Below are positions 12,758 through 43,464 of a stretch of 59,164 nucleotides of DNA, one piece after another. The position numbers were made by a program, and so were the translations under genes. The first letter of the stretch is position 1. Each line of letters opens with the position of its first letter. This DNA comes from Streptosporangiales bacterium (GTDB lineage: Bacteria; Actinomycetota; Actinomycetes; Streptosporangiales; WHST01), in the NCBI GenBank assembly GCA_009379955.1, contig WHST01000026.1, positions 1 to 59,164 of the forward strand, read 5' to 3'. A model generated the notes under the pieces. It worked only from the letters and a program-made list of their open reading frames with translations, did not search any database and had not been told where the DNA came from.

Positions 12758-12893
12758 CGGTCGGGTAGAGCACCACCAGCGCGTACAGCGCGAGCGCAGG
12801 GAGGACGAATAGGTACGGCACCCGCCCCGGCTCGCGGAGCGGACCCCGGGCCGTCCGGCCGACGCCGGCGGTGAGCGGGACCGTCGACGTCAC
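12758..12893 (-). pseudogene. Sugar ABC transporter permease, 5' fragment
   Basis: Starts at GTG 12893, overlapping the stop of the binding-protein gene as GTGA. It encodes about 45 residues (VTSTVPLTAGVG..., then VPYLFVLPALALYALVVLYPTV), which is the cytoplasmic lead and first membrane span of a MalF-type permease. It is cut where SDR sequence begins; the remaining five spans and any second permease are gone. The importer is therefore broken unless another permease pair serves its binding protein. Confidence 0.88.
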
Positions 12894-19018: not shown

Positions 19019-19993
19019 TCACGTGAAGAGGTGGATCGCGGCGAGCGACGTCGCTGCCGCCACCAGCGTCGAGACCAAGCCGAGCAGGGTGGCGCGGCCA
19101 CCGGTGCGGACGAGCGTGCGCAGGTGCACGGCGGTGCCCAACCCGAACAGCGCCCCGGCGAGCAGCAGCGTCGTGACGACCTGAGCAGCGGCCAGCACGG
19201 GTGCAGGGACGACGCCGATGCTGCGGACGGCGATCATCACGAGGAACCCGACGACGAACAACGGCACGAGCGCCGGACGCTTCCCACCGTTCGTCGGACG
19301 CGCTCGGCCGCGGCGGACCAGGCCATAACCCGCGACGAGCGGCGCGAGGAGCACCACGCGGGTGAGCTTGACCACGACCGCGGTGCCGAGCGCGGCCGCA
19401 CCCGCGGGCGAGGCGGCCGCGACGACCTGCGCGACCTCGTGCACGCTCGCGCCCGCCCAGACGCCCGCCGCGGCCTCCCCCAGACCCAGCGCTCCGTACG
19501 CGAGTGGCAGCAGCACGATCGCGGCGCTGCCGTAGAGGGTGACGAGCGCGACCGCGGTGGCAAGGTCCTCGTCGTCGCTGTCGGCCACCGCGTTCATCGC
19601 GACCGCGGCCGACGCACCGCAGATCGAGAACCCGGTGGCGACGAGCAACGTCGTGCCCGGCCGCACGCGCAGCAGCCGACCCGCCGCGAGCGTGGCGACG
19701 AACGTGAGGCCGACCGTCACCGCGACGACGCCGAGCACGCCTCGCGGCAGGCGCAGGACCTCGCCCACCGCGAGCTGCAGGCCGAGCAGCACCACGCCCG
19801 CGCGCAGCAGCCTGCGGGTCGCCACCCTGGTGCCGAGCTGCGCCCGCGGGCGTACCAGACCCACGTTGCGAGCGAGGACACCGAGCACCACCGCGACCGT
19901 GAGCGCGCTCACGAACGGCGCGACCCGGCTGACGGCGAACGCCACCGCGACACCGCCGGCGACGAGCGCGAGCCCGGGGAGGTAGGTGGTCAC
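19019..19993 (-). CDS. YeiH/Psb family putative sulfate exporter
   Basis: A 324-residue membrane protein with about ten spans. ATGFSICGASAAVAMNAV with the following DDEDLATAVALVTLYGSAAIVLLPL and WAGASVHEVAQVVAAA are the hallmark stretches of the YeiH family. Start GTG 19993 is chosen because GAGG lies six bases before it; the frame stays open upstream but into the 49-bp repeat. The divergent LysR gene is the usual partner, as with yeiH/yeiE in enterobacteria. Substrate is inferred from family annotation only. Confidence 0.87.
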   Translation of the reverse strand: MTTYLPGLALVAGGVAVAFAVSRVAPFVSALTVAVVLGVLARNVGLVRPRAQLGTRVATRRLLRAGVVLLGLQLAVGEVLRLPRGVLGVVAVTVGLTFVATLAAGRLLRVRPGTTLLVATGFSICGASAAVAMNAVADSDDEDLATAVALVTLYGSAAIVLLPLAYGALGLGEAAAGVWAGASVHEVAQVVAAASPAGAAALGTAVVVKLTRVVLLAPLVAGYGLVRRGRARPTNGGKRPALVPLFVVGFLVMIAVRSIGVVPAPVLAAAQVVTTLLLAGALFGLGTAVHLRTLVRTGGRATLLGLVSTLVAAATSLAAIHLFT

Positions 19994-20003
19994 CCTGGTC
20001 CTC

Positions 20004-20052
20004 GCGTCCGAGGAACCGGTGGCCGGAGCGACCACTTCTTCGGACGTCACGG
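20004..20052 (-). repeat. 49-bp hairpin repeat, copy 3 (inverted)
   Basis: Reverse complement of copies 1 and 2 with a few changes in the loop. It lies in the leader of the YeiH gene, ending about 10 bases before its start codon, where its hairpin could affect translation or transcription start. Confidence 0.85.
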
Positions 20053-20126
20053 GGGTGCCGGGGTGTCTCACCACCTCAGCTTCGCGCCGGGACGCTTCCG
20101 CGAGTAGGGCGAACGTCCTGTCGATG

Positions 20127-20143
20127 CATAAGGAACGGTTATG
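20127..20143. promoter_or_regulatory. LysR-type binding site
   Basis: CATAA-N7-TTATG is a perfect inverted repeat with the T-N11-A core of LysR-type sites. It lies 23 bases before the lysR start and between it and the divergent YeiH gene, as expected for an autoregulated LysR activator. Confidence 0.6.
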
Positions 20144-20165
20144 GGAGGAGCTGTACGCTGACGAC

Positions 20166-21080
20166 ATGCGGTCCGACCTGCGCGCGCTCGAGATGCTGCT
20201 CGCCGTGGCTGAGCAGGGCAGCATCGGCTCGGCCGCGCGCGAGCTGGGCGTCAGCCAGCCCGCGGTGTCGGCCCGCATCCGCGACCTCGAGCGACGGACT
20301 CGGCTCGACCTCGTCGAGCGCACACCGCGGGGGTCCCGCCTCACCACCGTCGGGGCGACGCTCGCCGACTGGGCACGCGACGTCCTCGTCGCGTCGGACC
20401 GGTTGGAGGCGGGAGTCCGCGCGTTGCGGGCGACCCGCAACAGCGAGCTGCGACTGTCCGCGAGCATGACGATCGCCGAGTACCTGCTCCCCCGATGGCT
20501 CACCGAGCTCGCCCACCGTTCGCCGAGCACCACGGTCGCGCTGCGGGTGCGCAACTCGCGCGACGTCGCCGCCGACGTCATGTCCGGCGCCGCCGACCTC
20601 GGCTTCGTCGAAGGCGTCGGCGTCCCCGCACAGCTGCGCAGGCATCAGGTCGCGCGGGACGAGCTCGTCGTGGTCGTCGGACGACGCCACCCGTGGGCGC
20701 GCCGCAGGCGGCCGCTCCCTGTCACGGAGCTCGCCACCGCCGCGCTGGTGCTCAGGGAGCCGGGCTCCGGCACTCGCGAGGCACTCGAGCGCACGCTCGC
20801 CAGGACCGGCGTCGACGTCGCCCCGCGGTTGGTGCTCGCGTCGTCCGCCGCGATCAAGTCGGCGGTCGAGTCCGGCGAGGGCGTGACCGTGCTGAGCCGC
20901 CTGGTCGTCGCGGACGAACTGCACACCGGCCGGCTCGTGGCCATCGACGTCGAGGGTCTCGACATGCGGCGGTCGCTGCGCGCTGTCTGGCCGAGCGGCG
21001 TGCGGTTGTCCGAACCCGCGACGGAGCTCCTCCGCTGCGCCGGCGCAAGCGGACGAAACCAGGGTCGACATCAGGGGTGA
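20166..21080 (+). CDS. LysR family regulator, divergent from the YeiH exporter
   Basis: A 304-residue LysR protein. The N-terminal helix-turn-helix reads LRALEMLLAVAEQGSIGSAARELGVSQPAVSARIRDLERRTRLDLVERTPRGSRLT, then a long linker helix and an effector domain with LVVVVGRRHPWARR and VLREPGSGTREALE. Start is placed at ATG 20166 by homology of LysR N-termini; an in-frame ATG at 20124 would put the operator inside the gene. The pairing with YeiH suggests a sulfur-related signal. Confidence 0.9.
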   Translation: MRSDLRALEMLLAVAEQGSIGSAARELGVSQPAVSARIRDLERRTRLDLVERTPRGSRLTTVGATLADWARDVLVASDRLEAGVRALRATRNSELRLSASMTIAEYLLPRWLTELAHRSPSTTVALRVRNSRDVAADVMSGAADLGFVEGVGVPAQLRRHQVARDELVVVVGRRHPWARRRRPLPVTELATAALVLREPGSGTREALERTLARTGVDVAPRLVLASSAAIKSAVESGEGVTVLSRLVVADELHTGRLVAIDVEGLDMRRSLRAVWPSGVRLSEPATELLRCAGASGRNQGRHQG

Positions 21081-28603: not shown

Positions 28604-29668
28604 TCAGGTGTCGAAGACGAAGCAGACCTTGCCGGTGCCGCGACCCGCGGCGAGGGCGTACGCCCGGTCCGCGTCGGTGAGCGGCAGGACGTGCTCGACC
28701 ACGGCCTCCGGATGCAGGTCGTGCTCGGCGAGCAGGCGTGCGCACCGGGCCATGTTGCCCACCGACGTCACCCACGACCCGGACACCGTGACCTCCTTGT
28801 GCAGCAGGTCGGCGGAGACGTCGAGGGTCACCTCACCGCCCTCGCCGAGCAGGGCGCAGCGTCCCCACGCACGCAGCGCGCGTATCGCGAGCTGACGTCC
28901 CGCCGCCGAACCGGACGCGTCGACGGCAACCTGGAAGCCGGCCTCCATCGCCTCCTCCTGGTCGCGCGTGGCGACCTCGCCGGGCTCCACGACCTCGTCG
29001 ACGAAGGGCAACCCCTTCGCCCAGCGACGCCGGCTCTCCTCGACCTCCACACCGACGACGCGCCGCGCCCCGAGGGCACGCGCGACCATCGCCGTCGCGA
29101 GACCCAGCGGGCCGAGCCCGACGACGAGGACGTCGTCGGCGCCGCTCACGTCCACCCGGCGCAGTCCTTCGTACGCCGTGCCGAACCCGCATCCCATCAG
29201 CGCCGCGTCGACCGCGGAGAACCCGGTGGGCGCAGGCATACAGGTGCTCGCGTCGGCGAGGACGAAGGGCGCGTGCCCGCCGTCGCGCTGGTTGCCGTAC
29301 GCGCGGCGCCGCGGGGAGCCGCAGTGGATCATGTAGCCCTCGCGACAGATGTCGCACTGCCCACAGCCCGCCACGTGGTAGACAAGCACGAGGTCGCCCT
29401 CGGCGACCGCGCGGACGCCTGGACCCAGGTCGGTGACGGTACCGGCGAACTCGTGACCTCCGATGCAACCGGTGTACGTCCGCGGTCCGCGGTCACGGCG
29501 CTCCCGGTACGCGTTGCTCAGGTCGCTGCCGCAGATGCCGGACGCGGCCGTACGCAACAGCACCTCGCCTGGTCCCGGCACAGGGATCTCGTGCCAGCCG
29601 AGCTCCACCGTCGAGTCGCCGGGGAACGTGACACCGAGCATCGACGTGCCGTCGACGAGACCGTCCAT
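28604..29668 (-). CDS. Zinc-dependent alcohol dehydrogenase (MDR superfamily)
   Basis: A 354-residue medium-chain dehydrogenase. ASGICGSDLS and GGHEFAGTV carry the catalytic zinc ligands (Cys, His, Glu). GCGQCDICREGYMIHC holds the four structural-zinc cysteines. VLVVGLGPLGLATAMVARALGARRVVGVEV is the NAD-binding fold. GGAGG stands 10 bases before ATG 29668. It follows the two sugar permeases in the same direction with an 18-base gap, so it likely oxidises a polyol or sugar alcohol brought in by that importer (inference). Confidence 0.92.
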   Translation of the reverse strand: MDGLVDGTSMLGVTFPGDSTVELGWHEIPVPGPGEVLLRTAASGICGSDLSNAYRERRDRGPRTYTGCIGGHEFAGTVTDLGPGVRAVAEGDLVLVYHVAGCGQCDICREGYMIHCGSPRRRAYGNQRDGGHAPFVLADASTCMPAPTGFSAVDAALMGCGFGTAYEGLRRVDVSGADDVLVVGLGPLGLATAMVARALGARRVVGVEVEESRRRWAKGLPFVDEVVEPGEVATRDQEEAMEAGFQVAVDASGSAAGRQLAIRALRAWGRCALLGEGGEVTLDVSADLLHKEVTVSGSWVTSVGNMARCARLLAEHDLHPEAVVEHVLPLTDADRAYALAAGRGTGKVCFVFDT

Positions 29669-29686
29669 CTGTCGCGAACCTCCGCC

Positions 29687-30523
29687 CTACTTGACCGCGC
29701 CGGCCGTGAGCCCGCGCACGAGGAAGCGCTGCGCCACGAACGTGAGGACCGTCGTCGGCGCCGCGATGATGACCGCGGCGGCCATCAGCCCGCCCCAGTC
29801 GTACTGACCGACACCGATGAAGTTGAAGGCGATGACCGGCATCGGCACCGTGTCCGCGTTCGCCAGCCCGAGCGCGAACAGGAAGTAGTTCCACGAGAAG
29901 ATGAACGAGATGACGGCGGCCACGGCGATCCCCGGTCGCACCATCGGCAGCGCGATCGTGAGGAACGTCCGGCGCATGCTGCAGCCGTCGATCTCGGCGG
30001 CCTCCTCGATCGCCCGCGGCACGCTCTCGAAGAACGGGATGAGCAGCCAGATGCACATGGGCAGCGTGATGATGAGGTGCACGAGGACGAGGAGCACGTA
30101 GTTCAGCGGGATCGAGTCGATCGCGCCCACCCGGATCGCCACCGTGCGCACCGGGATGAGGAACAGCACACCGGGCGCCATCCGCGCGACGATCGTCAGG
30201 ATCGACAACGACTTCAGGCCGAGCCTCGCGATGCAGTACGCAGCCGGCGCGCCCGCGATCAGCCCGAGCAACGTCGAGCCGCCGGCGATGATGATGCTGT
30301 TGCCGAGATACCTGCCGAACTCCATGCTCTGGAACAGGTTGACGTAGTTGTCGACGCTCGCGGGTGCGGTGAGGTCGGGAGGTGAGGCGGCGATCGCGCC
30401 CGTCCCGTGCAGACTGCCCCACGCCATGAACAGCACGGGACCGAGGAAGACGGCGAGGATCACCGCGTACGCGAGGTACGTGAGCGCGATGGCGACTCTG
30501 CTCCTGCTACGCGCCGAGCTCAC
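29687..30523 (-). CDS. Sugar ABC transporter permease (MalG/UgpE type)
   Basis: A 278-residue permease with six spans. EAAEIDGCSMRRTFLTIALPMVRPGIA is the EAA loop that contacts the ATPase. LPMCIWLLIPFFESVP precedes it, and it ends FVAQRFLVRGLTAGAVK as usual for CUT1-family MalG proteins. Its start overlaps the end of the MalF-type gene by 17 bases. No ATPase gene is nearby, so a shared multi-sugar ATPase (MsiK-like) elsewhere is likely. Confidence 0.93.
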   Translation of the reverse strand: MSSARSRSRVAIALTYLAYAVILAVFLGPVLFMAWGSLHGTGAIAASPPDLTAPASVDNYVNLFQSMEFGRYLGNSIIIAGGSTLLGLIAGAPAAYCIARLGLKSLSILTIVARMAPGVLFLIPVRTVAIRVGAIDSIPLNYVLLVLVHLIITLPMCIWLLIPFFESVPRAIEEAAEIDGCSMRRTFLTIALPMVRPGIAVAAVISFIFSWNYFLFALGLANADTVPMPVIAFNFIGVGQYDWGGLMAAAVIIAAPTTVLTFVAQRFLVRGLTAGAVK

Positions 30524-31418
30524 TGCGCCTCCTCAGCCACGTGAGTGCGGCGGCGAGCAGCAGCACGAGCGCGAACAGGGCGAGCTGTGCGGCGCTGCCG
30601 AAGCCGAGCTGCAGCTCGTCGAACGCCTTGCGGTACGCGTAGATGTTCATCGTCGTCGACGCGTTCAGCGGGCCTCCCTGCGTCATGATGTAACCGGTGT
30701 CGAAGTAGCGGATCAGGTCCACCGTCCGCAGCAGCGCGACGACGGTGATGACCGGACGCAACAGCGGCAGCCCGATGCGCAGCGCGATCTGCCACGAGTT
30801 CGCGCCGTCGACACGCGCCGCCTCGAACGGCTCTGCCGGCAGGTTCCTGATGCCCGCCGCCACGATCAGCGCCACGAGCGGCGTCCAGTGCCAGACGTCG
30901 ACGAGGATCAGCGACCACACCACGCGGTCGGGATCGCCGAGCCAGTCCTGCGCCGGGATGCCGACGAGACCGAGCAGGTAGTTGAAGACCCCGAGTGTGG
31001 GGTCGTAGATGAGCAGCCAGACGAGACCGACCACGACGGCCGCCGTCAGGGACGGGACGAGAACGAGCGTCTGGAGATAGCGTCCGCCCGGTACCTCCCT
31101 GCTCAGGACATAGCCGATGCCGATGCCGAGCACGAGCTGCGGTATCAACGATCCGACGTAGATGAGCAGGGTGACCCGCACCGACGACCAGAAGACCGGG
31201 TCGGCGGCCATCGTGCGGAACGTCTCGAACGTCAGCTGGTCGAAGCGCAGCGACGTCGCCGAGGTCGGTGACAGCGCGAGGCCGAGGGCGTAGAGGATAG
31301 GGAAGACCACGAGCAGCAGTGAGAGGGCGATCGCGGGGAACAGCAGCGGCCATGACTCGCGTCGACGACGCCGCTCCGGCGACATGCTCCTCGGCGCTCG
31401 TGCCCTACCCGCGGCCAT
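30507..31418 (-). CDS. Sugar ABC transporter permease (MalF/UgpA type)
   Basis: A 303-residue permease with six spans, the first at SWPLLFPAIALSLLLVVFPILYALGLAL. FEAARVDGANSWQIALRIGLPLLRPV is the EAA loop. TQGGPLNASTTMNIYAYRKAFDELQLGFGSA is the conserved segment before the last span. The ATG at 31418 lacks a strong ribosome site; a second in-frame ATG exists at 31385. It diverges from a binding-protein gene 134 bases away, which probably belongs to the same importer. Confidence 0.92.
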   Translation of the reverse strand: MAAGRARAPRSMSPERRRRRESWPLLFPAIALSLLLVVFPILYALGLALSPTSATSLRFDQLTFETFRTMAADPVFWSSVRVTLLIYVGSLIPQLVLGIGIGYVLSREVPGGRYLQTLVLVPSLTAAVVVGLVWLLIYDPTLGVFNYLLGLVGIPAQDWLGDPDRVVWSLILVDVWHWTPLVALIVAAGIRNLPAEPFEAARVDGANSWQIALRIGLPLLRPVITVVALLRTVDLIRYFDTGYIMTQGGPLNASTTMNIYAYRKAFDELQLGFGSAAQLALFALVLLLAAALTWLRRRSELGA

Positions 31419-31552
31419 GATCCGTCTCGTGGTCTCGGCGTTGTCGGCATCGTCTGCTCGTGTTACCGTCGGTCAACATCGAGGTAAGGTTAGCTGAGGT
31501 CTGACCACCATCACAAGATGGGTCGACCGGCACGACTGAGCAAGGGGTCTGG

Positions 31553-32848
31553 ATGTCCATTCGCCGGCGCACGCTCCGAACCACCGCCCTGGCAGTGGCG
31601 CTGGGCGCTCTCGTCCTCTCGTCGTGCGGCTCGGGAGGTTCCGAGGCCGACGCGAAGGAGCTCGACGTCGTCCTCGTCAACACGCCGTGGGCGCGGGCGA
31701 TCACGCCGCACATCCCGGAGTTCGAGAAGGAGACCGGGATCAAGGTCAAGCTGCAGCAGTTCGCGCAGCCCCAGGCACGCGACAAGATCTTCGTCAGCCT
31801 GTCGTCGCGCAGCTCCGACCTCGACGTGTTCAACGTCCTGCCGTCGAACGAGGGGATCAAGTGGCAGCGGGCCGGGCTCCTGGAGGACCTCGAGAGCCGG
31901 CTGGCCGAGGCCGACGCCGACTACGACGCCAAGGGTCTCACTCCGGCGATGCTCGACGCCTCGCGCCTGAACAAGGAGCTCGTCGGCATCCCGGTCAATG
32001 CCGAGGGTCCGGTGGTCTACTACCGCAAGGACCTGCTGAAGCAGTACGACATCGCGGTACCGAAGACGATCGACGAGCTCGTCGCCGCGGCCGCCAAGAT
32101 CCACAGCGCCTCCAAGGGGCGGTACGTGAGTGCCACCCGCGGCCAGTCCCCCACCGTCGTCTACACGTTCGGCAACTTCCTCCACAACGAGGGTGCCGAG
32201 TGGGCGAAGGGCGGCAAGCCCGCGTTCGGCGACCCCCGAGTGGTCAAGGCCATCGACGACTACGTCAAGCTCGCGGGGACGTACGGACCGAAGGGCGCCG
32301 TGAACAACGGGCCGGTGCAGACGTCGGCCCTGATGGCATCGGGCAGAGCCGCGTTCCAGATCGACTCGAGCAACGAGCTCGACAGCGTCATCGGCGAGCA
32401 GTCCAAGGTCGCCGACAAGATCGGCATCATGCCGATCCCCCGCGGGACGGCGAGGAGCCAGCCGACGCTGCTCGCCTGGAACCTCGGGGTGTCGAAGTTC
32501 TCGAAGAAGAAGGACCAGTCCTGGCAGTTCATCCAGTGGGCGACGTCGCCGGAGATGATGCTGACGCTCGCCGAGGACGGAGTCGCGCCCCCGCGCGACA
32601 AGACCTGGGAGGACCCGGCGTTCCAGAAGCTCCACGCCTCACCCGCCAAGAAGGACTGGGTGACGTCGGTGACCGACATCCTCGCCACCGGCACGGGCGA
32701 GGTAGGCCCGCCGGCAGACGACCAGGGCTCGGCGCGCAAGGTCATCGGTGACGAGATCGACAAGGTGATCCTCGGCCAGCAGGACGCCGAGGCCGCGGCG
32801 GCGAACATCCAGAAGGGCCTGCAGCCGCTCCTCGCGACCAAGGAGTGA
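31553..32848 (+). CDS. Sugar ABC transporter substrate-binding lipoprotein
   Basis: A 431-residue binding protein. The signal peptide ends with LSSC, lipid-anchored at Cys25. The mature part starts with ELDVVLVNTPWARAITPHIPEFEKETGIKVKL. It has the hinge VNAEGPVVYYRKDLLKQYDI and the C-lobe QFIQWATSPEMMLTLAEDGVAPPRDKTWED. AAGGGG precedes ATG 31553. It reads away from the two permeases at 29687-31418 and should serve them. TAAGGT (31484-31489) is a candidate -10 in the 134-bp divergent gap. A hairpin follows the stop. Confidence 0.92.
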   Translation: MSIRRRTLRTTALAVALGALVLSSCGSGGSEADAKELDVVLVNTPWARAITPHIPEFEKETGIKVKLQQFAQPQARDKIFVSLSSRSSDLDVFNVLPSNEGIKWQRAGLLEDLESRLAEADADYDAKGLTPAMLDASRLNKELVGIPVNAEGPVVYYRKDLLKQYDIAVPKTIDELVAAAAKIHSASKGRYVSATRGQSPTVVYTFGNFLHNEGAEWAKGGKPAFGDPRVVKAIDDYVKLAGTYGPKGAVNNGPVQTSALMASGRAAFQIDSSNELDSVIGEQSKVADKIGIMPIPRGTARSQPTLLAWNLGVSKFSKKKDQSWQFIQWATSPEMMLTLAEDGVAPPRDKTWEDPAFQKLHASPAKKDWVTSVTDILATGTGEVGPPADDQGSARKVIGDEIDKVILGQQDAEAAAANIQKGLQPLLATKE

Positions 32849-32890: not shown

Positions 32891-35374
32891 CTACGGCGCA
32901 CCCAGCGAGGGAATCCGCGTCGTCGCGACGCCGAGCTCGGCGACCGACACACTGCCTGGTACGCCGTGCGCCTCGAGCGCCTCGAGCCTGACGTAGCGCG
33001 CTGCCGTCGGGTCGAACGAGGCGGTGCGCACGCCGCCGGTCGGCTCCCAGCGGCCGCTCGCGACCGGGCGGAACGTCTCGCCGTCGTCGCTGACGTGCAT
33101 GCGGTACGAGGTGATCGTGCCGTCCCTCGTCGTCACCGACGGCGTGTACGCGACGCCGCGCACCGCCGTCCGCCTCCCGAGGTCGAGGGTGAGTGACTGC
33201 GGGAGCGCGGCGAGCGGGGTGTACTCCGACCGCCACAGCGACCAGAGGCGGTCGTCGGCCGCGAGGTCCTTCGTGTACGCGTGGCCGAAGTCGTTGGCGG
33301 CATGCTCGCTCGTGGCCGTCACCGACATCCGCGAGTGCGGCACGAACCTCGGCGCGGGCGCCGTCGGTGTCACGCGGACGTCGTCGAACTGCGCGCGCTG
33401 CCAGTCCCCGACCGTGAACCCGACCTGCCCGGTCGTGTGGTGGTCGTCGCGCACCTCGCCGAGCCGCTCGCCGTCGAGGCTCACCGTGATGCGGTCCCCT
33501 TCGAACCGCATCGCCAGCCGGTGCCAGCGGTCCGTGCCGAGGGCCGCGGTCGTGCCCGACGCGAGGACGCGGTTCGCGGTCTGCAGCTCCTGCGAGTAGA
33601 GCGTCCACTCGCCGGTGTCGGCGACCCGCAGGTGGTAGCCGAGGGCGCTGTGCTGCTGGCTGTCCACCCGGCCGAGCAGCTCGACGTAGCCCTTCTCGTC
33701 GAGCATGACGGCGGCGGAGACCTCGTAGTCACCCCACCAGCGCGGGTCGCCGGCGAACGTCATGGGCAGCAGGTCGACGCCGTGCCACGGCAACGGCTGT
33801 GTCGTGACCGTCTGCTCGTAGCACGTGCCGCGACGTCCGCCGGCGCATGGCACCGCCTCGAACCCGCCGTGCACGTCGGACCAGTACCTCGCCAGCTTCA
33901 GCGGCCCGACGCGTTCGAAGTCCTCCGTGTACGGCACGCGCAGCTGCTCGCCCGGGTCGGCGTGCGGGTGCGCGCCGCCCTTGGACTGCCCGCGGGTCGT
34001 CGACACGGTGTAGACGTGACCGGGCTCGACGGTCAGGGAGTACGTGCCGTCGTCCGGCCGGATCGCGCCGGCGGGCAGGAAGTCGTCGTGGGTGCTCCTG
34101 GTCTCCAGGTTCGTCGACCACACCCGCACGGGCGACCGCGACAGCCCGTCCACGTCGAACCGCAGCGTCTCCGGCCCGGTGGAGTCGAGCGTCTCGACCA
34201 CCGTCGAGTAGTCGCCCGAGTCGGGTGAACGCAGGCTGACGTAGCTCGCGCCGGCGTCGGTGTAGCCGGAGCCGTGGTCGAGGTAGCGCCAGCCGGGATC
34301 GGTGAACTGCGTCGTGTGCGCGTCGACCCAGATGCTCGGTCCGACCTCGTAGAACCCCGACCACGGGCGCTCGGCGAGCATCAGCCCGGTGCCGCCGATC
34401 GGGAAGTGGTCGTACCAGGCCGACAGCAGCGCCCAGTTGAGGTTGCCGGTGATCTTCCCGTCCGTGTAGTGCCGGTTCATCGCGCGGGCGAGCGGGCCGG
34501 GACCCACGTCGAAGTCCTGCGTGCTGTTCTCGCTGTCCCACAACGGCTTGCCCAGCGACGCCGCGTCGTCGCTGACGTGGCACTTCTGCTGAAGGGTGCG
34601 CCAGACGCACACGTCGTGCTCGCCGAGGACGTCGACGGCGTCGGCGAACTCCGGGTCGCCGACCATCTCCGTCGTCGCGTTCCAGTAGTCCGGCGGGTGG
34701 TGGTTGTCGGTGCCGACGACCTTCACATCGGAGTAGCCGTGCTCGTCGAGCGCCGCCGCGAGCTCCACGTACACGTCGCGGTCGTAGCCGCTCTCGTTGC
34801 CGGCGCCGAGGTACGCGATGTCGAAGCCGTTCCTCTTCGCGCAGTCGAGCCAGCCGATCAGGTACTCGACGCGGTCCTGCGACCAGTAGCCGCCCTCGAA
34901 CCACCCGGGAGCGCCCCAGCCGAGCGCGTAGAACTCGATGTCGGGGTTGCGCTTCTGCGCCTCGCGCATGAGCCACCACTCGTACCCGCGGTCGCAACGG
35001 ACCTCGTCGCGCGCACGCATGTGCGTCGGCTCCGAGCCGACGGTCGAGTCGATGTCCGCGCCGATCTCGACCTTGAGCAGGTCGAGCGCCGCGCCGTAGT
35101 CCGGCCGGAACAGGTAGTCGAGGATCTCCGCGCGCTCCCGTGGCGGGTAGTCGAGCAGGAGCCGGGTGAACCCGCCGGCGCTGACGCCGCCCACCCCGTC
35201 GAACCTGAGACCGGTGTCGTCGCCATCGAGCGTCACGGCCTGCACCGGCGCCGCATCCGCGGACCGCTCCGTCACCGGCAGCAGGAGAGCGGCCAGCAGG
35301 CCGAGGGCGACGGTGAGCGCGACCGTCAGCCGGCGCCGCGCACCTCCGGCATGCCGTCCTTGACGTTCGGCCAT
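32891..35374 (-). CDS. Secreted GH59 galactocerebrosidase-like glycosidase
   Basis: An 827-residue exported enzyme. A signal peptide (RRRLTVALTVALGLLAALLLPV...ADA) leads to a GH59 catalytic domain: LRFDGVGGVSAGGFTRLLLDYPPRERAEILDYLFRP, EIGADIDSTVGSEPTHM and RGYEWWLMREAQKRNPDIEFYALGWGAPGW closely follow animal galactosylceramidase. The acid/base is Glu194 in GAGNESGYD and the nucleophile Glu282 in LWDSENST. GLMLAERPWSGFYEVGPSIWVDAHTTQFTDPGWRYL is another family block. A lectin-like domain follows, and a C-terminal F5/8-type (CBM32) module (SLTLDLGRRTAVRGVAYTPS...ARYVRLEAL). ATG 35374 has GAGGAG eight bases before it. Bacterial GH59 is rare; a beta-galactoside or galactolipid outside the cell is the likely substrate. 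Confidence 0.92.
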   Translation of the reverse strand: MAERQGRHAGGARRRLTVALTVALGLLAALLLPVTERSADAAPVQAVTLDGDDTGLRFDGVGGVSAGGFTRLLLDYPPRERAEILDYLFRPDYGAALDLLKVEIGADIDSTVGSEPTHMRARDEVRCDRGYEWWLMREAQKRNPDIEFYALGWGAPGWFEGGYWSQDRVEYLIGWLDCAKRNGFDIAYLGAGNESGYDRDVYVELAAALDEHGYSDVKVVGTDNHHPPDYWNATTEMVGDPEFADAVDVLGEHDVCVWRTLQQKCHVSDDAASLGKPLWDSENSTQDFDVGPGPLARAMNRHYTDGKITGNLNWALLSAWYDHFPIGGTGLMLAERPWSGFYEVGPSIWVDAHTTQFTDPGWRYLDHGSGYTDAGASYVSLRSPDSGDYSTVVETLDSTGPETLRFDVDGLSRSPVRVWSTNLETRSTHDDFLPAGAIRPDDGTYSLTVEPGHVYTVSTTRGQSKGGAHPHADPGEQLRVPYTEDFERVGPLKLARYWSDVHGGFEAVPCAGGRRGTCYEQTVTTQPLPWHGVDLLPMTFAGDPRWWGDYEVSAAVMLDEKGYVELLGRVDSQQHSALGYHLRVADTGEWTLYSQELQTANRVLASGTTAALGTDRWHRLAMRFEGDRITVSLDGERLGEVRDDHHTTGQVGFTVGDWQRAQFDDVRVTPTAPAPRFVPHSRMSVTATSEHAANDFGHAYTKDLAADDRLWSLWRSEYTPLAALPQSLTLDLGRRTAVRGVAYTPSVTTRDGTITSYRMHVSDDGETFRPVASGRWEPTGGVRTASFDPTAARYVRLEALEAHGVPGSVSVAELGVATTRIPSLGAP

Positions 35375-35550
35375 CGACCCGCTCCTCGCCTGCGAGGCAC
35401 ACCGGCGGCGCGCGCCGGACGGTTGGTGCAGAGCCTGGCGACCGGCGTCGAGAGCCGTCAATCACCTGGGACAAACTCGACGCTGTGTGGTCAGAGGTCT
35501 GGTGATTTTGTCACTGACCGTGTAGCTTTCCCGGCATCCCGCCGGGCTCG

Positions 35551-35578
35551 TTGACACACAAGGGAAATCGATTACCGT
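35551..35578 (+). promoter_or_regulatory. Galactoside operon promoter with LacI-type operator
   Basis: TTGACA (35551-35556) and TACCGT (35573-35578) form -35 and -10 with a 16-base spacer. GGAAATCGATTACC (35563-35576), centred on AATCGATT, is a LacI-family operator overlapping the -10. Just upstream is a CCCGGC/GCCGGG hairpin (35530-35546). The leader to ATG 35641 is about 55 bases. No LacI gene is in the window. Confidence 0.72.
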
Positions 35579-35640
35579 GCGGAGGGCCGATGCCGTTGGC
35601 AGGTGGGCGTCCGTTCGCGGAGAGAGTGCAGGTCACGACG

Positions 35641-37188
35641 ATGGACAACGACGACATCCGCGCCGGCCTCAGCAGGCGGGGCTTCCTCGGTGCAGCGGCG
35701 GGGTTCGGTGTGGCCGCGATGGCCGGCCTCACCGCGTGCGACACGGGATACCGCGACCCCGCCACCAAGGGGCTCGGCGGCTTCAACATCCCCGACCCGA
35801 AGACGTCCCTGCCGTCCGGCGACGTCACGTTCCGCCTCATCGACAGCGGTGACACCAAGAAGCCGTTCTGGGACGCGTTCTTCGACGCGTACAGCAAGAA
35901 GCACAGCAACATCACCGTCAAGTACGACGGCCTGCCGAAGAACCGGATGGACGAGATCATCCCGCTCGGCATCCGCAACGGCACCGCGCACGACGTCTTC
36001 ATGCTGCCGCCGTCGATGACGCTGCCCCAGGCCGTCGAGGAGAAGTGGGTGTCGCCACTGGACGACCTCATCCCCGACATCGACGCGCTGAAGAAGCGGC
36101 TCCCGCCCGGCACGCTCGCCGACGGCGTCCAGATCTTCGACGGCAAGATCTACCAGTTGCCGCTCTCGACGGAGCAGCGGTACCTCTGCCTGCTGCACTA
36201 CAACAAGAAGCTGATGGACGACGCCGGCTACGACCCGTCGACCAAGACGCTCACCTGGGACGAGTACCGCGACGCGGCGAAGAAGATCACCAAGGCGGGC
36301 AAGGGCAAGGTCTACGGCGTCGTGCTCGAGATCGCCCAGCCCGACCGGCTCCAGCCCTGGGTCGACTACATGACCCGCCAGCTCGGGGTCGCGAGCGTCA
36401 ATGGCATCGACCCGAAGAACGGCGAGTACGTCTACGACCGGCCCGAGGTGCTCGACGCCATCGAGCTGATCCTGGCGCTGAAGAGCGACGGCAGCCTGTT
36501 CCCCGGCTCCAACTCCCTCACCGCGCCCGAGGCGTGGCCCCGGCTGCCCCGCGGTGCCGTGGGCATGGTGAGCGCGGGTCCGTGGGTGACGGTGCAGTGG
36601 GAGAACGACAACCCGGACTTCGAGTTCGGGGTCGCTGCGCACCCCACGCCGACCGACGACCCGCTGCCCATCGGCTACCCCGCGTTCGGCGGAGACTGGC
36701 TCTCGGTGTTCTCGAAGAGCAAGAACAAGGCGATCGCCGGTGACGTGATCTCGTACGTCCTGAGCGACCAGGGTCAGGCCCGGTGGGCAGAGATCGTCAA
36801 GGTCGGCAACCCGCCGATCGTCGAGAAGGCACGCGAGGCGGGCGCAAAGGACTACAGCGCCCAGGCGAAGGACTGCCTGGCGGTGGCCGACACCATGGTG
36901 ATCAACCCGGAGGCGGTCATCGTCAACCCGGACACCTCGGCCGTGGCGCCGCTACTGAAGATCCCGCCGCAGTTCGAGTTCGGCCAGGTGATCCAGGCGA
37001 TCCTCGTGGGCAAGGAGGACGCCCCGAAGAAGGCGCTCACCGCCCTCGCCGACCGATGCAACGGCAACCTCGACGCGGCCATCAAGGAGGCCGGGAAGAA
37101 GGGCGCGAAGGTCAGCCGCGAGGACTACGTCTTCTCGAACTGGGACCCGAAGAAGGACTACCTGCCCGCCGACTACAAGGGCCGGTGA
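35641..37188 (+). CDS. Sugar ABC transporter substrate-binding lipoprotein (Tat-type signal)
   Basis: A 515-residue binding protein. The leader LSRRGFLGAAAGFGVAAMAGLTAC carries a twin-arginine motif and a lipobox with Cys33, so it is probably folded in the cytoplasm, exported by Tat and lipid-anchored. YQLPLSTEQRYLCLLHYNKKLMDDAGYDP and LPRGAVGMVSAGPWVTVQWENDNPDFEFGVAAHP are binding-protein signatures. It is longer than usual. First gene of the operon with two permeases and a GH42 enzyme, so it should bind galactosides. The 131 bases before the permease gene show no hairpin or second promoter I trust. Confidence 0.92.
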   Translation: MDNDDIRAGLSRRGFLGAAAGFGVAAMAGLTACDTGYRDPATKGLGGFNIPDPKTSLPSGDVTFRLIDSGDTKKPFWDAFFDAYSKKHSNITVKYDGLPKNRMDEIIPLGIRNGTAHDVFMLPPSMTLPQAVEEKWVSPLDDLIPDIDALKKRLPPGTLADGVQIFDGKIYQLPLSTEQRYLCLLHYNKKLMDDAGYDPSTKTLTWDEYRDAAKKITKAGKGKVYGVVLEIAQPDRLQPWVDYMTRQLGVASVNGIDPKNGEYVYDRPEVLDAIELILALKSDGSLFPGSNSLTAPEAWPRLPRGAVGMVSAGPWVTVQWENDNPDFEFGVAAHPTPTDDPLPIGYPAFGGDWLSVFSKSKNKAIAGDVISYVLSDQGQARWAEIVKVGNPPIVEKAREAGAKDYSAQAKDCLAVADTMVINPEAVIVNPDTSAVAPLLKIPPQFEFGQVIQAILVGKEDAPKKALTALADRCNGNLDAAIKEAGKKGAKVSREDYVFSNWDPKKDYLPADYKGR

Positions 37189-37319: not shown

Positions 37320-38288
37320 ATGATGCAGACAGCGCGGCTTGGGCGTACGGGCGGGCAGGACGCCGGGTCGCTGCGGCAGCGGCTGTGGCACGCACGCTGG
37401 AGCTACCTGTTCATGCTCCCCGCCCTGGTGCTCGGCGCCCTGTTCACGTTCTACCCGATGGTCGCGTCGTGGTACATCTCGTTCCTCGACTGGTCGGGCC
37501 TCGACTCCGACCGGCGGTGGGTCGGGCTCGCCAACTACCGCGAGGCGCTCGGCGACGCCGCGTTCTGGGACGCGTTCGGCAGGACGTTCGCGTTCACGCT
37601 CGTCGCGGTGCCGGTCATGCTGGTGCTCGCGCTGCTCGCCGCACTCGCGCTGAACGACCAGGCGCTGCGCATGCGCGCGGTGTTCCGCACCATGTTCTTC
37701 CTGCCGGTCGTCACCACCACCGCGATCGTCGGTGTCGTGATGTCGCTCATCATGAACCCGTTCGACGGACCGCTGAACTCCGCGCTGCTCACCATCGGGA
37801 TCGTCGACGCGCCCATCGACTTCCTCGGCGACCCGAACCTCGCCCTGTGGTCGGTCGCCGGGGTGTTCGTGTGGAAGTGGATGGGCATGTCGATGATCTA
37901 CTGGCTCGTCGCGCTGCAGACCGTGCCGGAACAGCTGTACGAGGCGGCGCGCGTCGACGGCGCGTCGCGCTGGCGGACGCACCGGCACATCACCGTGCCG
38001 CTGATCACGCCGTTCGCGATCATCATCATCCTCGTCACGTTCGTCGGCGCCCTGCAGACCTTCCCGCTGGTGCAGGCGATGACCCAGGGCGGCCCGGCGT
38101 TCTCGTCCGAGCTCGTCGAGGTCTACATCTACCGGCTCGCGTTCGCCGCCGACAGCACCCCGCGACTCGGGTACGCCTCGGCGGTCGCCGTCTTCTTCGG
38201 CCTCACCGTGCTGGTGCTCACCCTCGCCCAGGCCTGGGGCATCCGCCGTGCGGGCGCGTTCAAGCGCGACATCGGCGGTGCGTCGTGA
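37320..38288 (+). CDS. Sugar ABC transporter permease (MalF type)
   Basis: A 322-residue permease with six spans. FMLPALVLGALFTFYPMVASWYISFLDWSGLD is the first span and periplasmic start, LYEAARVDGASRWRTHRHITVPLITPF the EAA loop, and MTQGGPAFSSELVEVYIYRLAF the conserved late segment. Start is one of two adjacent ATGs (37320/37323); the best GGAGG is 22 bases away, so initiation may depend on upstream translation. Its TGA is the first codon of the start-codon element that leads to the next permease. Confidence 0.92.
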   Translation: MMQTARLGRTGGQDAGSLRQRLWHARWSYLFMLPALVLGALFTFYPMVASWYISFLDWSGLDSDRRWVGLANYREALGDAAFWDAFGRTFAFTLVAVPVMLVLALLAALALNDQALRMRAVFRTMFFLPVVTTTAIVGVVMSLIMNPFDGPLNSALLTIGIVDAPIDFLGDPNLALWSVAGVFVWKWMGMSMIYWLVALQTVPEQLYEAARVDGASRWRTHRHITVPLITPFAIIIILVTFVGALQTFPLVQAMTQGGPAFSSELVEVYIYRLAFAADSTPRLGYASAVAVFFGLTVLVLTLAQAWGIRRAGAFKRDIGGAS

Positions 38289-38397: not shown

Positions 38398-39300
38398 AGT
38401 GCCACCGGGACCGTCCCCGCGGTCGCCGGCACCGCACCGCCAGTGACCACACCACGCCGCCGGCGCCGCGGCGGCGGGCGCGGGCTGGCCCGCGAGATCA
38501 TCGTGAGCCTGATCCTGCTGCCGATCTGCCTGCTCTGGATCTACCCGTTCCTGTGGATGGTCGGGGCGTCGCTGAAGTCCGACTCGGAGATCTTCGGCCG
38601 GGTCGGCATCCTGCCGGAGACGCCGGTCTGGGAGAACTACGCCCGCGCCTGGTACGAGGCCAACATCGGGCCGTACTTCTTCAACACCCTCATCGTCACC
38701 GTCGCGGTCATCGCGATCGTGACGGTGACGACCGCGATGATCGGCTACGTCATCGGCAGGTACCCGTTCCCGGGCAAGAAGGTGCTCGTCGGCGTCCTCG
38801 TCGCGTCGCTGTTCCTGCCCGAGGGCTACACGATCATCCCCGTCTTCGACCTGGTCAACAGCCTCGGCCTGTCCGGCTCACTGTGGGGGATCATCCTCGC
38901 GGAGTCCGGCGGGGCGCACGTCATCCAGATCATGCTGTTCGCCGGCTACTTCCGGCAGCTGCCCAGGGAGCTGGAGGAGGCGGCGCGGATGGACGGCGCC
39001 GGGTTCCTGCGGATCTTCTGGCAGGTGATGCTCCCGCTCGCCAAGCCGGCCATCGCCACCGCGATCATCATGACGCTGATGCGGGTGTGGAACAGCTTCC
39101 TCATCCCTCTCGTGCTCACGCTGCCGCGACCTGAGCTGCGCACGCTGGCCGTCGGCGTGTACTCGTTCCAGGGCGAGAACTTCACCGACTGGTCCGGCAT
39201 GGCCGCGGCGTCGACGATCGCGCTGCTGCCCATCGTCGTCGTCTTCCTGCTGCTGCAGCGCTACTTCGTCGAGGGCGTCGCCGGAGCCGTCCGCGCCTGA
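38395..39300 (+). CDS. Sugar ABC transporter permease (MalG type)
   Basis: A 301-residue permease with six spans. LPICLLWIYPFLWMVGASLKS is span 1 and loop, RELEEAARMDGAGFLRIFWQVMLPLAKPAIAT the EAA loop, and FLLLQRYFVEGVAGAVRA the usual ending. ATG 38395 is provided by the repeat element, with GGAGGA eight bases before it. An in-frame upstream extension exists but consists only of translated repeat. Confidence 0.93.
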   Translation: MSATGTVPAVAGTAPPVTTPRRRRRGGGRGLAREIIVSLILLPICLLWIYPFLWMVGASLKSDSEIFGRVGILPETPVWENYARAWYEANIGPYFFNTLIVTVAVIAIVTVTTAMIGYVIGRYPFPGKKVLVGVLVASLFLPEGYTIIPVFDLVNSLGLSGSLWGIILAESGGAHVIQIMLFAGYFRQLPRELEEAARMDGAGFLRIFWQVMLPLAKPAIATAIIMTLMRVWNSFLIPLVLTLPRPELRTLAVGVYSFQGENFTDWSGMAAASTIALLPIVVVFLLLQRYFVEGVAGAVRA

Positions 39301-39341: not shown

Positions 39342-41429
39342 GTGCTGTTCGGAGTCTCGTACTACCCCGAGTACCAGCCGTACGACCGGCTCGACGAGGA
39401 CATCGCGATGATGCGCCGCGCCGGCATCAACTACGCGCGGCTCGGTGACTCGATCTGGTCGCTGTGCGAGCCGGTCGAGGGCGAGATCGACGTCGACTGG
39501 CTGCGGCCGGTGCTCGACGCTCTGCACGAGGCCGGGATCGCGGTCGTGCTCGTGACGCCAACGTACGCGATCCCGCCGTGGCTCGCCCGCCGACACCCGG
39601 ACGTGATGGCGATCCGCGCGGACGGGCGCGCGGTCCCGTACGGGGGAAGGCAGAACGTCGACATCTCGCACCCGACGTACCGCTTCCACGCCGAGCGGAT
39701 CACCCGCGTGCTGCTCGACCGGTACGCGCGGCACCTGTCCGTCGTCGGCTTCCAGGTCGACAACGAGACCGGCATCGCGGGCGCGCGCAACCCCGCGCTG
39801 TTCGACAGGTTCGTCGAGCGGATCAAGGCGAAGTACGGCACCGTCGACGCCGTCAACGAGACCTGGGGCCTCACGTACTGGTCGCACCGGCTGGCCGACT
39901 GGGCCGACCTGTGGCCGCCGGCGGGCAACACGAGCCCTGGCTACGACCTGGAGTGGCGCCGGTTCGAGGCGGAGCAGGTCACCGAGTTCCTCACCTGGCA
40001 GGCGGAGATCGTCCGGGAGTACGCGCGGGACGACCAGTTCGTCACCCAGGACCTCGTCGGGCTGCACGGGCGCCCGGAGGCGGACAGGTACCGCATCGGC
40101 GCCGCGATGGACGTACAGGCGGAGAACTTCCCGCACGCGCCGCAGGACGGACTGCTGCACCCGCCGATCGAGAGCACCGTCATGTTCCCCGCACGGTCGC
40201 TCGGTACGGGACCCGCGCAGCTGTACCAGCGCTCCGACATGGCGTACGGCGCCAAGCGCGCGAACTTCTTCATCACCGAGATGAACCCGCTCAGCGTCGG
40301 CGGCTCGGAGAACACCTTCCCCGAGTACGACGGGCAGTGGCGGCAGGCGGCGTTCGCGACCATCTCGCGCGGCGCCGACATGGTCGCGTACTGGCACTGG
40401 CACAGCCTCCACTACGGGCACGAGACGTACTCGCACGGCATCCTCAACCACGACCTCGAACCGAACCGCTGCTACGACGAGCTCGCCACGATCGGCGCTG
40501 ACCTGCAGCGGCACGGCGACCGGCTCACCGGACTCACCCCGGACGCCGACGTTGCGTTCCTCTACTCCTACGACAGCAGGTACGCGCTGTCGTGCCAGCC
40601 CTGCCTGAAGACGCCGGACGGCAGGCCCGACCACTCGACGTACGCCCACATCTTCGACAACGCCTACCGGTCGTTCTTCGACGCCCGCGCCCAGTCGATC
40701 GTCCTGGACACCGGCGACGACATCAGCGGGTTCCCCGTCGTCGTCGCGCCCGCGCTCTACATCGCCGACGAGGCGACCCTCGACGGGCTCGCGGCGTACG
40801 CGGAGGCCGGCGGCCACCTCGTGCTGACGTTCCGCTCCGGCTACGCCGACGAGTTCGCCCGCGCCCGCTGGCAGCGCGCGCCGGGACCGCTGCGCGCCGC
40901 CGTGGGCGCGAGCTACCACCTCTACTCCAACCTCGCGACGCCGATCGACGTGCGCGCGACGTCATCGGCGATCGACGTCCCCACCGGGTCGCGGGCGACC
41001 GGATGGGCCGACGAGCTGGAGCTCGAGGGCGCGGACGCGCTGGTGCACTACGACCACCCGCACTTCGGCCGCTACCCCGCCGTCGTCACCCACCGCGTCG
41101 GCAGCGGCCGCGTGACGTACGTCGGCACGCTCCCGACACCGCCGCTCGGCCGGGCGATCGCGTCGTGGGTGCTGGAGCAGTCGGGCGTACGTACGCTCGG
41201 CGCCGCGCTGCCCGAGCCCGTCCGCGTCACCACCGCGCGCACGACGACCGGCGACCCGCTGACCTTCGTGGCCAACTGGTCGTTCGACCCCCACACCGTG
41301 ATCGACCCGTCGATCACCGGCACCGACCTGTTCGCCGACGCGCCGGCGCCGGCGACCGGGCTCGCCCTTGGCCCGTGGGACTTCCGCATCCTCACCGCGA
41401 GCCGACCCCCGGCGTCGGCAGGTAGCTGA
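39342..41429 (+). CDS. Beta-galactosidase, GH42 family
   Basis: A 695-residue enzyme with no signal peptide, so cytoplasmic. Domain A is a TIM barrel starting MLFGVSYYPEYQPYDRLDEDIAMMRRAGINYARLGDSIWS. The acid/base is Glu142 in FQVDNETG and the nucleophile Glu313 in FITEMNPLS, within one residue of the Thermus A4 enzyme numbers. Domain B (trimerisation) and a C-terminal beta domain follow. Start GTG 39342 has GGAGG seven bases before it. It hydrolyses the galactosides imported by the three genes upstream. Its 3' end overlaps the remnant of a nitrilase gene on the other strand. Confidence 0.95.
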   Translation: MLFGVSYYPEYQPYDRLDEDIAMMRRAGINYARLGDSIWSLCEPVEGEIDVDWLRPVLDALHEAGIAVVLVTPTYAIPPWLARRHPDVMAIRADGRAVPYGGRQNVDISHPTYRFHAERITRVLLDRYARHLSVVGFQVDNETGIAGARNPALFDRFVERIKAKYGTVDAVNETWGLTYWSHRLADWADLWPPAGNTSPGYDLEWRRFEAEQVTEFLTWQAEIVREYARDDQFVTQDLVGLHGRPEADRYRIGAAMDVQAENFPHAPQDGLLHPPIESTVMFPARSLGTGPAQLYQRSDMAYGAKRANFFITEMNPLSVGGSENTFPEYDGQWRQAAFATISRGADMVAYWHWHSLHYGHETYSHGILNHDLEPNRCYDELATIGADLQRHGDRLTGLTPDADVAFLYSYDSRYALSCQPCLKTPDGRPDHSTYAHIFDNAYRSFFDARAQSIVLDTGDDISGFPVVVAPALYIADEATLDGLAAYAEAGGHLVLTFRSGYADEFARARWQRAPGPLRAAVGASYHLYSNLATPIDVRATSSAIDVPTGSRATGWADELELEGADALVHYDHPHFGRYPAVVTHRVGSGRVTYVGTLPTPPLGRAIASWVLEQSGVRTLGAALPEPVRVTTARTTTGDPLTFVANWSFDPHTVIDPSITGTDLFADAPAPATGLALGPWDFRILTASRPPASAGS

Positions 41430-41745: not shown

Positions 41746-41861
41746 GGCCGCCATGCTGGTAGGCCGGCCGCCATACGACTAGGTTCGGGCCTCCGGTGTC
41801 GATTCCGCGGACGGCCGTTCGTGTGGAGGGTGACAGCAACGGAACCGAGGAGGCATCACCG

Positions 41862-42224
41862 ATGAAGCACTACCTGCTCAGCATCCAGCAGCCCGACGGC
41901 GGCGCGCCCGCGCCCGAGGTCATCGAGCCGATCATGCGCGACATCGGCGCGTTCAACGACGAGCTCAGGGCGGCGGGCGCGTGGGTCTTCGCCGGCGGCC
42001 TGCACGACGCCGCGACGGCCACCGTGGTGCGCGTGACGGACGGCGAGACGCTCACCACCGACGGCCCGTACGTCGAGGGCAAGGAGCACGTCGGCGGGCT
42101 CACCGTCCTGCGGGCACCCGACCTCGACGCCGCCCTGGAGTGGGGCAGGAAGCTCGCCGCGGCGACGACGCTGCCGATCGAGGTACGCCCGTTCCAGGGC
42201 GAGCCCGACACCCACCTGGCCTAG
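41862..42224 (+). CDS. DGPF/YCII-related domain protein
   Basis: A 120-residue alpha-beta barrel protein of the YCII-like family. [37 protein letters not shown] carries the DGP(F/Y) signature and the next strand. GAGGAGG lies nine bases before ATG 41862. It stands 13 bases ahead of an ECF42 sigma-factor gene, the standard pairing for this group. Such DGPF proteins are known targets or partners of ECF42 factors, but their chemical role is not established. Confidence 0.92.
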
Positions 42225-42237
42225 GAGGTTGCCTGGC

Positions 42238-43464
42238 GTGCCGGCCGTCCCGCACAGCGAGATCGAGCGCGTGTTCCGCGAGGAGTACGGACGCGCCGTC
42301 TCCGTCCTGGTCCGCCTCCTCGGTGACATCGACACGGCCGAGGAGGCGGTGCAGGAGGCGTTCGCCGCCGCGGTGCGGCGCTGGCCGTCCGCAGGACTCC
42401 CCCCGAGCCCGGCCGGCTGGATCATCACCACCGCGCGCAACCGGGCCGTCGACAGGTTCCGGCGCGAGGCGTCCCGCGACGACCGGCACGCCCAGGCCGC
42501 GCTGTTGCACGCCCGCGACGAACCGGCGGAGGAGGGACCCGTGCGAGACGACCGGCTGCGCCTGATCTTCACCTGCTGCCACCCCGCGCTCGCCACCACG
42601 GCTCAGGTCGCGCTGACGCTGCGGCTGCTCGGCGGGCTCACCACCACCGAGGTCGCGCGGGCGTTCCTGGTGCCCGAGCCGACGATGGCCCAGCGGCTGG
42701 TCAGGGCGAAGGGCAAGATCCGCGACGCCGGCATCCCGTACCGGATCCCGTACGAGGCCGACCTCCCGGACCGCCTGCGCGCCGTCCTCGCCGTCGTCTA
42801 CCTCATCTTCAACGAGGGCCACACCGCGAGCTCGGGTGACCGGCTCGCGCGCGAGGACCTCTGCGCGGAGGCCATCAGGCTCGGCCGCCTGCTTGCCGAG
42901 TTGATGCCCGACGAGCCCGAGGTCCTCGGGCTGCTCGCCCTCATGCTGCTGGTCGAATCGCGTCGCGCGACCCGGTCGACGGCGGGCGGTGACCTCGTCC
43001 TGCTCCGCGACCAGGACCGCAGCCGCTGGGACCTTCGCCTCGTTGCCGAGGGCCAGGACCTCGTCCGCCGGTGCCTGCGGCGCAACCGGCCGGGCCCGTA
43101 CCAGATCCAGGCGGCCATCAACGCCGTCCACAGCGACGCATCGACGGCGGAGACCACCGACTGGCACCAGGTCGTGCGACTCTACGACCAGCTCGTGGCG
43201 ATCGCGCCGAACCCGGTCGCGGCCCTCAACCGCGCGGTCGCCGTGGCCGAGGTCGAGGGACCGGGCGCCGCGCTCGCGCTCGTCGACGACCTCGGCCTCG
43301 GCGGGTACCACCTGTTCCACGCTATCCGCGCCGACCTGCTCAGGCGCCTGGACCGCGACACCGAGGCGGCCGCCGCGTACGACGAGGCGATGGCGCGTAC
43401 CGAGAACGCATCCGAGCGCGCGTTCCTGCGACGCCGGCGGGATGCGCTGACCGGCAACCGCTAG
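42238..43464 (+). CDS. ECF42-type RNA polymerase sigma factor
   Basis: A 408-residue sigma factor. Region 2 is [39 protein letters not shown]...[18 protein letters not shown]. Region 4 is [56 protein letters not shown] long C-terminal TPR-like extension ([37 protein letters not shown]) is specific to ECF42 and replaces an anti-sigma factor in control. I chose GTG 42238, which has GGAGG nine bases before it; a TTG at 42229 is too close. Its TAG overlaps the stop of the convergent gene. Confidence 0.94.

Follow-up and report, generated by a model that had tools for sequence, protein, structure and literature searches.

The window, by which we mean the whole 59,164-nucleotide stretch of DNA analysed (contig WHST01000026.1 of a Streptosporangiales bacterium, a soil-type actinobacterium), carries a gene for a secreted GH59 enzyme at 32891-35374, and this observation is confirmed. 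On the minus strand, the gene runs from an ATG at 35374 to a stop codon that forms its 32891 end; its open frame extends upstream as far as a TTG at 35461. As the original prediction had it, the gene is flanked by two genes for solute-binding proteins (31553-32848 and 35551-37188, both on the plus strand), and the second of these, SBP2, heads an operon that closes with a GH42 gene. GH59 and SBP2 are divergently oriented; the open frame of SBP2 opens at a TTG at 35551, and the ATG at 35641 is, by eye, the likely start. The features are as follows.

28604-29668, minus strand: zinc dehydrogenase, left cassette
29687-30523, minus strand: permease, left cassette
30507-31418, minus strand: permease, left cassette
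31553-32848, plus strand: SBP1, solute-binding lipoprotein, left cassette
32891-35374, minus strand: secreted GH59 enzyme, 827 amino acids, with signal region, GH59 catalytic domain, GALC-type lectin domain and CBM32-type module
34529-34531, minus strand: codon of Glu282, nucleophile, equivalent to GALC Glu258 (alignment)
34793-34795, minus strand: codon of Glu194, acid/base, equivalent to GALC Glu182 (alignment)
35563-35576, no strand: palindrome GGAAATCGATTACC, probable operator, between the divergent GH59 and SBP2 genes
35641-37188, plus strand: SBP2, solute-binding lipoprotein with Tat-type signal (Tat signal and lipobox read by eye)
37320-38288, plus strand: ABC sugar permease F2 (from the translation)
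38434-39300, plus strand: ABC sugar permease G2, with an approximate start in an open frame that begins at 38248
39342-41429, plus strand: GH42 glycosidase of the BlArap42B lineage (profile and tree), with Ser364 and, by eye, no signal peptide

Elsewhere in the window, a third solute-binding protein of the SBP1/SBP2 type is encoded at 12890-14215 (minus strand), with same-strand genes from 9486. Directly 3' of the GH42 operon come a YCII-domain gene and then a gene for an ECF sigma factor carrying DUF6596 (41796-43464, plus strand). A Cons_hypoth698 membrane protein is encoded at 19019-20581 (minus strand) and also immediately past GH59 in another locus (L062:12765-13838), perhaps by coincidence.

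The GH59 identity of the protein and its two catalytic glutamates, 194 and 282, both claimed by the original prediction, are confirmed by Pfam, by the alignment with GALC and by the fold match. The GH59 family profile scored 329.5 bits against a curated cut-off of 27, and Pfam, counting along an 856-residue read (ATG-based numbering is obtained by subtracting 29), placed a GH59 domain at 87-385 (E 2.4e-98), a GH59 C-terminal lectin domain at 534-698 (E 2.2e-11) and an F5/8 type C, CBM32-type module at 714-843 (E 8.3e-19). NCBIfam returned no name for either the GH59 enzyme or its partner GH42. Mouse GALC is the top solved relative by sequence (E 8e-83), and with an AlphaFold model (pLDDT 88.1, pTM 0.87) the top three Foldseek matches were all mouse GALC (TM 0.89-0.90, by target length); the GALC-type fold, including the lectin domain, is present (TM 0.90 to 3zr5, by target length). 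The N-terminus reads, by eye, as a secretion signal, so that the predicted secreted form with a C-terminal CBM32-type module holds on this reading and on the Pfam domain.

The window enzyme shares with mammalian GALC (mouse 3zr5/4ccc) the GH59 and lectin fold, the catalytic glutamate pair and Thr93, Trp135, Asn181, Trp291 and Trp524, but differs in its added CBM32-type module, in being a bacterial secreted protein at a sugar-uptake locus, and in parts of the pocket. Among the aligned bacterial GH59 rows, GALC Trp135, Asn181, Glu182, Glu258, Trp291 and Trp524 are invariant (81/81) and Thr93 is kept in 80 of 81. The galactose hydroxyls are contacted in GALC, according to PMC4445328, by Trp135, Gly48, Thr93, Ser261 and Arg380, and PMC5764952 describes Arg380 as shifting upon substrate binding. 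The complete pocket is not found in the window enzyme: Gly48 is replaced by Ala and Ser261 by Thr, and the Arg380 loop is gone, while the remaining contacts are intact. Arg380 is present in none of the 81 bacterial rows, the whole loop being missing; Thr at GALC position 261 is unique to the clade of the window enzyme (7/7 rows), whose residues at positions 183, 238, 288 and 292 are likewise clade-specific. A modelling study describes the GALC pocket as having room for the galactosyl unit only, at subsite -1 (PMC6637243). Free galactose would therefore be the expected product, and the "release of galactose-bearing pieces" that had been proposed for the locus is ill-suited to a GH59 enzyme.

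Among solved structures, the C-terminal module is closest to CBM32-5 of the C. perfringens enzyme CpGH89 (4a41, E 1.2e-26), which binds galactose; the canonical CBM32 galactose motif is given in PMC3313936 as His/Tyr/Arg/Asn/Phe. At these positions the window module has Arg/Tyr/Ser/Asp/Ser; it differs from CBM32-5 at His, Arg, Asn and Phe and retains Tyr alone, and with four of the five canonical residues replaced, a galactose-binding CBM32 was rejected by the motif test. The other six rows of the window clade lack an intact motif as well; in CBM32 rows outside this clade, Arg is kept in 15/15 and Asn in 14/15. The altered pocket and CBM32 of the window clade may mean that another sugar is recognised.

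GH59 is not a rarity in bacteria, a view that was rejected since matches of at least 195 bits occur, within the order, in 45 of 345 genomes (counted by hand). We compared neighbourhoods among the 80 named loci, chosen from 454 relatives as the 80 most similar to the window; L080 and L119, where the GH59 gene is missing from the gene calls, were omitted from the neighbour counts and the tree, and L132 and L133, on the same contigs as L055 and L058, from the neighbour counts. The structure alignment was made without L065. In this set, 79 GH59 loci (78 named and the window) comprise 57 of CBM13 type, 21 with CBM32 and one with neither module. The CBM13 rows form a single clade (support 99/97), with which the module-less row is grouped. 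Feruloyl esterase (28/57), GH54 (31/57), GH29 (27/57), GH27 (20/57) and GH10 (18/57) are neighbours of the CBM13-type enzymes, and each of these families occurs at 0/21 of the CBM32-type loci (best 80 of 454). For these family counts, lectin-bearing enzyme queries were trimmed to their catalytic parts. A single-linkage clustering of the neighbours may have merged groups through ricin-type lectins that they have in common. ABC permeases, GH2 or GH42 are in reach at eight of the 21 CBM32-type loci and absent at 13, several of which are short (best 80 of 454).

The window clade (CBM32, support 100/99) has seven rows, namely the window, L052, L053, L054, L055, the first copy of L057 and L060. Most of its members have neighbours other than the SBP2/GH42 operon: GH2 and importer genes accompany GH59 in L052, L054 and L060, and none was seen in L053 and L055. 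The GH2 enzymes encoded at L052 and L054 are no less similar to beta-glucuronidases than to beta-galactosidases. In L054 (Micromonospora), a galactonate dehydratase gene lies directly upstream of GH59 (equivalog, 612 bits against a cut-off of 311). In a Bacteroidota MAG (L057:9788-14847), two tandem GH59 genes of different clades follow a GH2 gene of beta-galactosidase type and are themselves followed by a gene of GH116 type.

The proposal of a galactoside import locus stands for the second operon, which recurs beside GH59, and falls for the first importer, which is found apart from GH59 in congeners. The genes of the window were compared with two congeners (G001, G002) and the 80 named GH59 loci. 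In both congeners the left cassette is grouped, with SBP1 downstream of the dehydrogenase on the same strand and with GH59 absent nearby (the G002 contig being 3.4 kb). Because G001 and G002 carry the cassette without GH59, the first importer cassette (28604-32848) is probably unrelated to the enzyme, and a single system made up of both importers was ruled out by this congener gene order. The best solved relative of SBP1 is a protein titled sorbitol-binding (E 2.2e-29), and the left dehydrogenase has matches of scyllo-inosose, threonine and polyol dehydrogenase type, all below cut-off.

The SBP2-F2-G2-GH42 operon adjoins GH59 in the window, in Jiangella asiatica (L059) and in Haloactinopolyspora alba (L062). 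Orthologues of F2 in L059, L062, L140 and L170 are 79-81% identical, and those of G2 are 86-88% identical in L059, L062 and L170 and 87-93% in L140 (in two pieces). Where SBP2-F2-G2 occurs with this type of GH42, GH59 lies within about 5 kb in three of five genomes. In G809 (L170) the operon is on a 9 kb contig that has no GH59, and G001 has the SBP2/GH42 operon in a genome without any GH59; the operon can therefore do without the enzyme. The GH59 enzymes of L059 and L062 belong to a CBM32 group different from the window clade, and since the three enzymes span two clades, plain inheritance is an unlikely explanation for the pairing. On the evidence of gene order, the link between GH59 and the importer/GH42 operon at 35.5-41.4 kb is real. 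The palindrome at 35563 is presumably a LacI-like operator, and one resembling GGAAATCGATTACC precedes the SBP2 orthologue in all four other operons examined. Sites as good were found in 0, 5, 7 and 1 of 500 shuffles for L140, L059, L062 and L170, respectively, the shuffle being of a simple two-base-block kind and the genomes compared being related. Through this palindrome GH59 and the operon may be co-regulated.

The partner enzyme is a GH42 member by profile (E 1.7e-79) and trimerisation domain (E 4.1e-31). Among solved structures its closest relative by a wide score difference, at 363 bits where the runner-up has 232, is 5xb7, which a review identifies as the alpha-L-arabinopyranosidase BlArap42B (PMC8106489). 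In the same source, Trp358 of BlArap42B obstructs the site of the C6-OH of galactose, a hydroxyl that beta-galactosidases read by a His. The window enzyme and BlArap42B are of the same lineage but differ at this position, where the window has Ser364 and thus neither the Trp of the alpha-L-arabinopyranosidase nor the His of the ordinary beta-galactosidases. In the GH42 tree, the window falls in a Ser clade (six rows, five genomes) amid 16 actinobacterial Trp rows and 5xb7, and two His rows fall outside this group; the deep order is unsure, since 5xb7 and the His rows sit on long branches. The enzyme is, from this placement, of the alpha-L-arabinopyranosidase lineage, and an ordinary GH42 beta-galactosidase was rejected on the Ser364 and the tree. 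The own genome also has a second strong GH42, of ordinary type with the His kept, on contig 146, where one acid-sugar dehydratase relative lies nearby. A Ser in place of Trp would admit galactose, and the change fits a shift from arabinopyranosides to galactosides. It coincides with a GH59 neighbour in three of five genomes, and no GH59 was found in the 19 kb covered at the four Trp-type loci examined.

For the fate of the sugar, the own genome (97.4% complete) has a galactokinase and three galactonate dehydratases above cut-off. Enolase-superfamily relatives of acid-sugar dehydratases are very numerous there, the galactonate dehydratase model giving 26 matches, three of them over the cut-off. 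AraA was not found in this genome, nor was a GH53 endo-galactanase; of the substrates originally predicted, galactolipid or galactan, the type I galactan part is weakened because the genome lacks GH53.

We propose, with somewhat more confidence than doubt, that the GH59 enzyme is a secreted, exo-acting, retaining beta-galactosidase that operates in parallel to an importer and a cytoplasmic GH42; the substrates would most probably be galactosides of plant origin. Outside the cell, Glu282 would attack and Glu194 protonate, so that a single terminal galactose leaves. The CUT1-type importer (SBP2 and the two permeases) would take up small galactosides, the cytoplasmic GH42 would cleave those that are imported, and the galactose would enter the Leloir or the galactonate pathway. 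Both enzymes would thus act on the same plant material without an oligosaccharide relay from GH59 to GH42; parallel uptake is expected because the GALC-type pocket holds one galactosyl unit, as modelled in PMC6637243. The earlier interpretation of the locus is in this way partly supported.

Several other readings were weighed against this proposal. The sugar could be galactose-like with C6 changed or missing, such as alpha-L-arabinopyranose or a C6-modified galactose, with a taste common to GH59 and GH42, an alternative that we hold only tentatively. BlArap42B and the other 16 actinobacterial GH42 rows of the lineage all have the C6-blocking Trp, the window-clade GH59 has Thr at GALC position 261 together with the four clade-specific residues, all bacterial rows lack Arg380, and the GH2 enzymes of L052 and L054 have relatives of glucuronidase type; but the window GH42 itself has Ser rather than Trp, the own genome has galactose-pathway genes and no AraA, and a galactonate dehydratase gene adjoins GH59 in L054. 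In its fullest and equally tentative form, the window-clade GH59 and the Ser-type GH42 would be a two-enzyme system for a C6-altered beta-galactoside-like sugar, with an outer GH59 of new specificity, a CBM32 turned to another ligand and an inner GH42 reopened at C6. It is doubtful that the enzyme trims side chains of arabinoxylan or arabinogalactan in the plant cell wall, with the importer operon as a separate entity. The CBM13-type loci, rich in feruloyl esterase, GH54, GH29, GH27 and GH10, and the xyl-doc cluster of R. cellulolyticum, where GH59 occurs with feruloyl esterase, GH62, GH27, GH2 and GH95 (PMC6556953), make such a role conceivable, yet those five CBM13-locus families have no representative at the 21 CBM32-type loci (best 80 of 454) and no further recognised cell-wall enzyme lies near the window GH59.

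A GALC-like role, in which galactose would be taken off cerebrosides or the galactolipids of plants, is possible but is not favoured and must be considered unlikely. The fold and catalytic residues are those of GALC, and at four Thermomonosporaceae CBM32-GH59 loci of another clade (L066, L067, L069 and L077) genes for an alpha/beta hydrolase and a GDSL lipase recur slightly upstream, which could point to galactolipids or simply reflect synteny among related genera. However, GALC depends on saposin A for access to its lipid (PMC5764952), the annotated window neighbours include no recognised lipase or saposin gene, Arg380, mobile in GALC on substrate binding, is missing, and several of the closest clade members adjoin sugar importers and glycosidases. 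That GH59 was merely inserted next to an unrelated importer operon would be in keeping with the GH59-free operon of G001 and with the other neighbours of most clade members. Such chance is very improbable, because the operon is rare (within the order, 3 of 342 genomes have an SBP2 relative at E < 1e-80) and still adjoins GH59 in three genomes and two GH59 clades.

Bacterial GH59 enzymes have been described before, also from a compost metagenome and in Streptomyces genome tables. GH59-1238 of R. cellulolyticum (xyl-doc) and 4665 of Paenibacillus JDR-2 are, like the window enzyme, bacterial, secreted and composed of GH59 and a binding module, but the sources describe them with CBM6 and a dockerin or SLH (PMC6556953, PMC4765114), in place of the CBM32 and the importer/GH42 operon of the window. 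No measured substrate of any bacterial GH59 was found in the open-licence PubMed Central literature searched. The bacterial family itself is therefore known, and what is new in the window clade is the pocket, the binding module and the gene partners; in detail, these appear, from alignments and trees, to be the loss of most CBM32 galactose residues, the pocket changes and a GH42 of the arabinopyranosidase lineage with Trp changed to Ser. The clean split between CBM13-type loci, with arabinoxylan enzymes, and CBM32-type loci, partly with galactoside importers, gives a simple handle for substrate assignment. GALC is the enzyme of human Krabbe disease, and GH59 is known almost wholly through that disease, yet the family is frequent in the window's actinobacterial order. 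Should the two-enzyme system for a C6-altered sugar prove true, GH59 would include a specificity unlike that of galactocerebrosidase.
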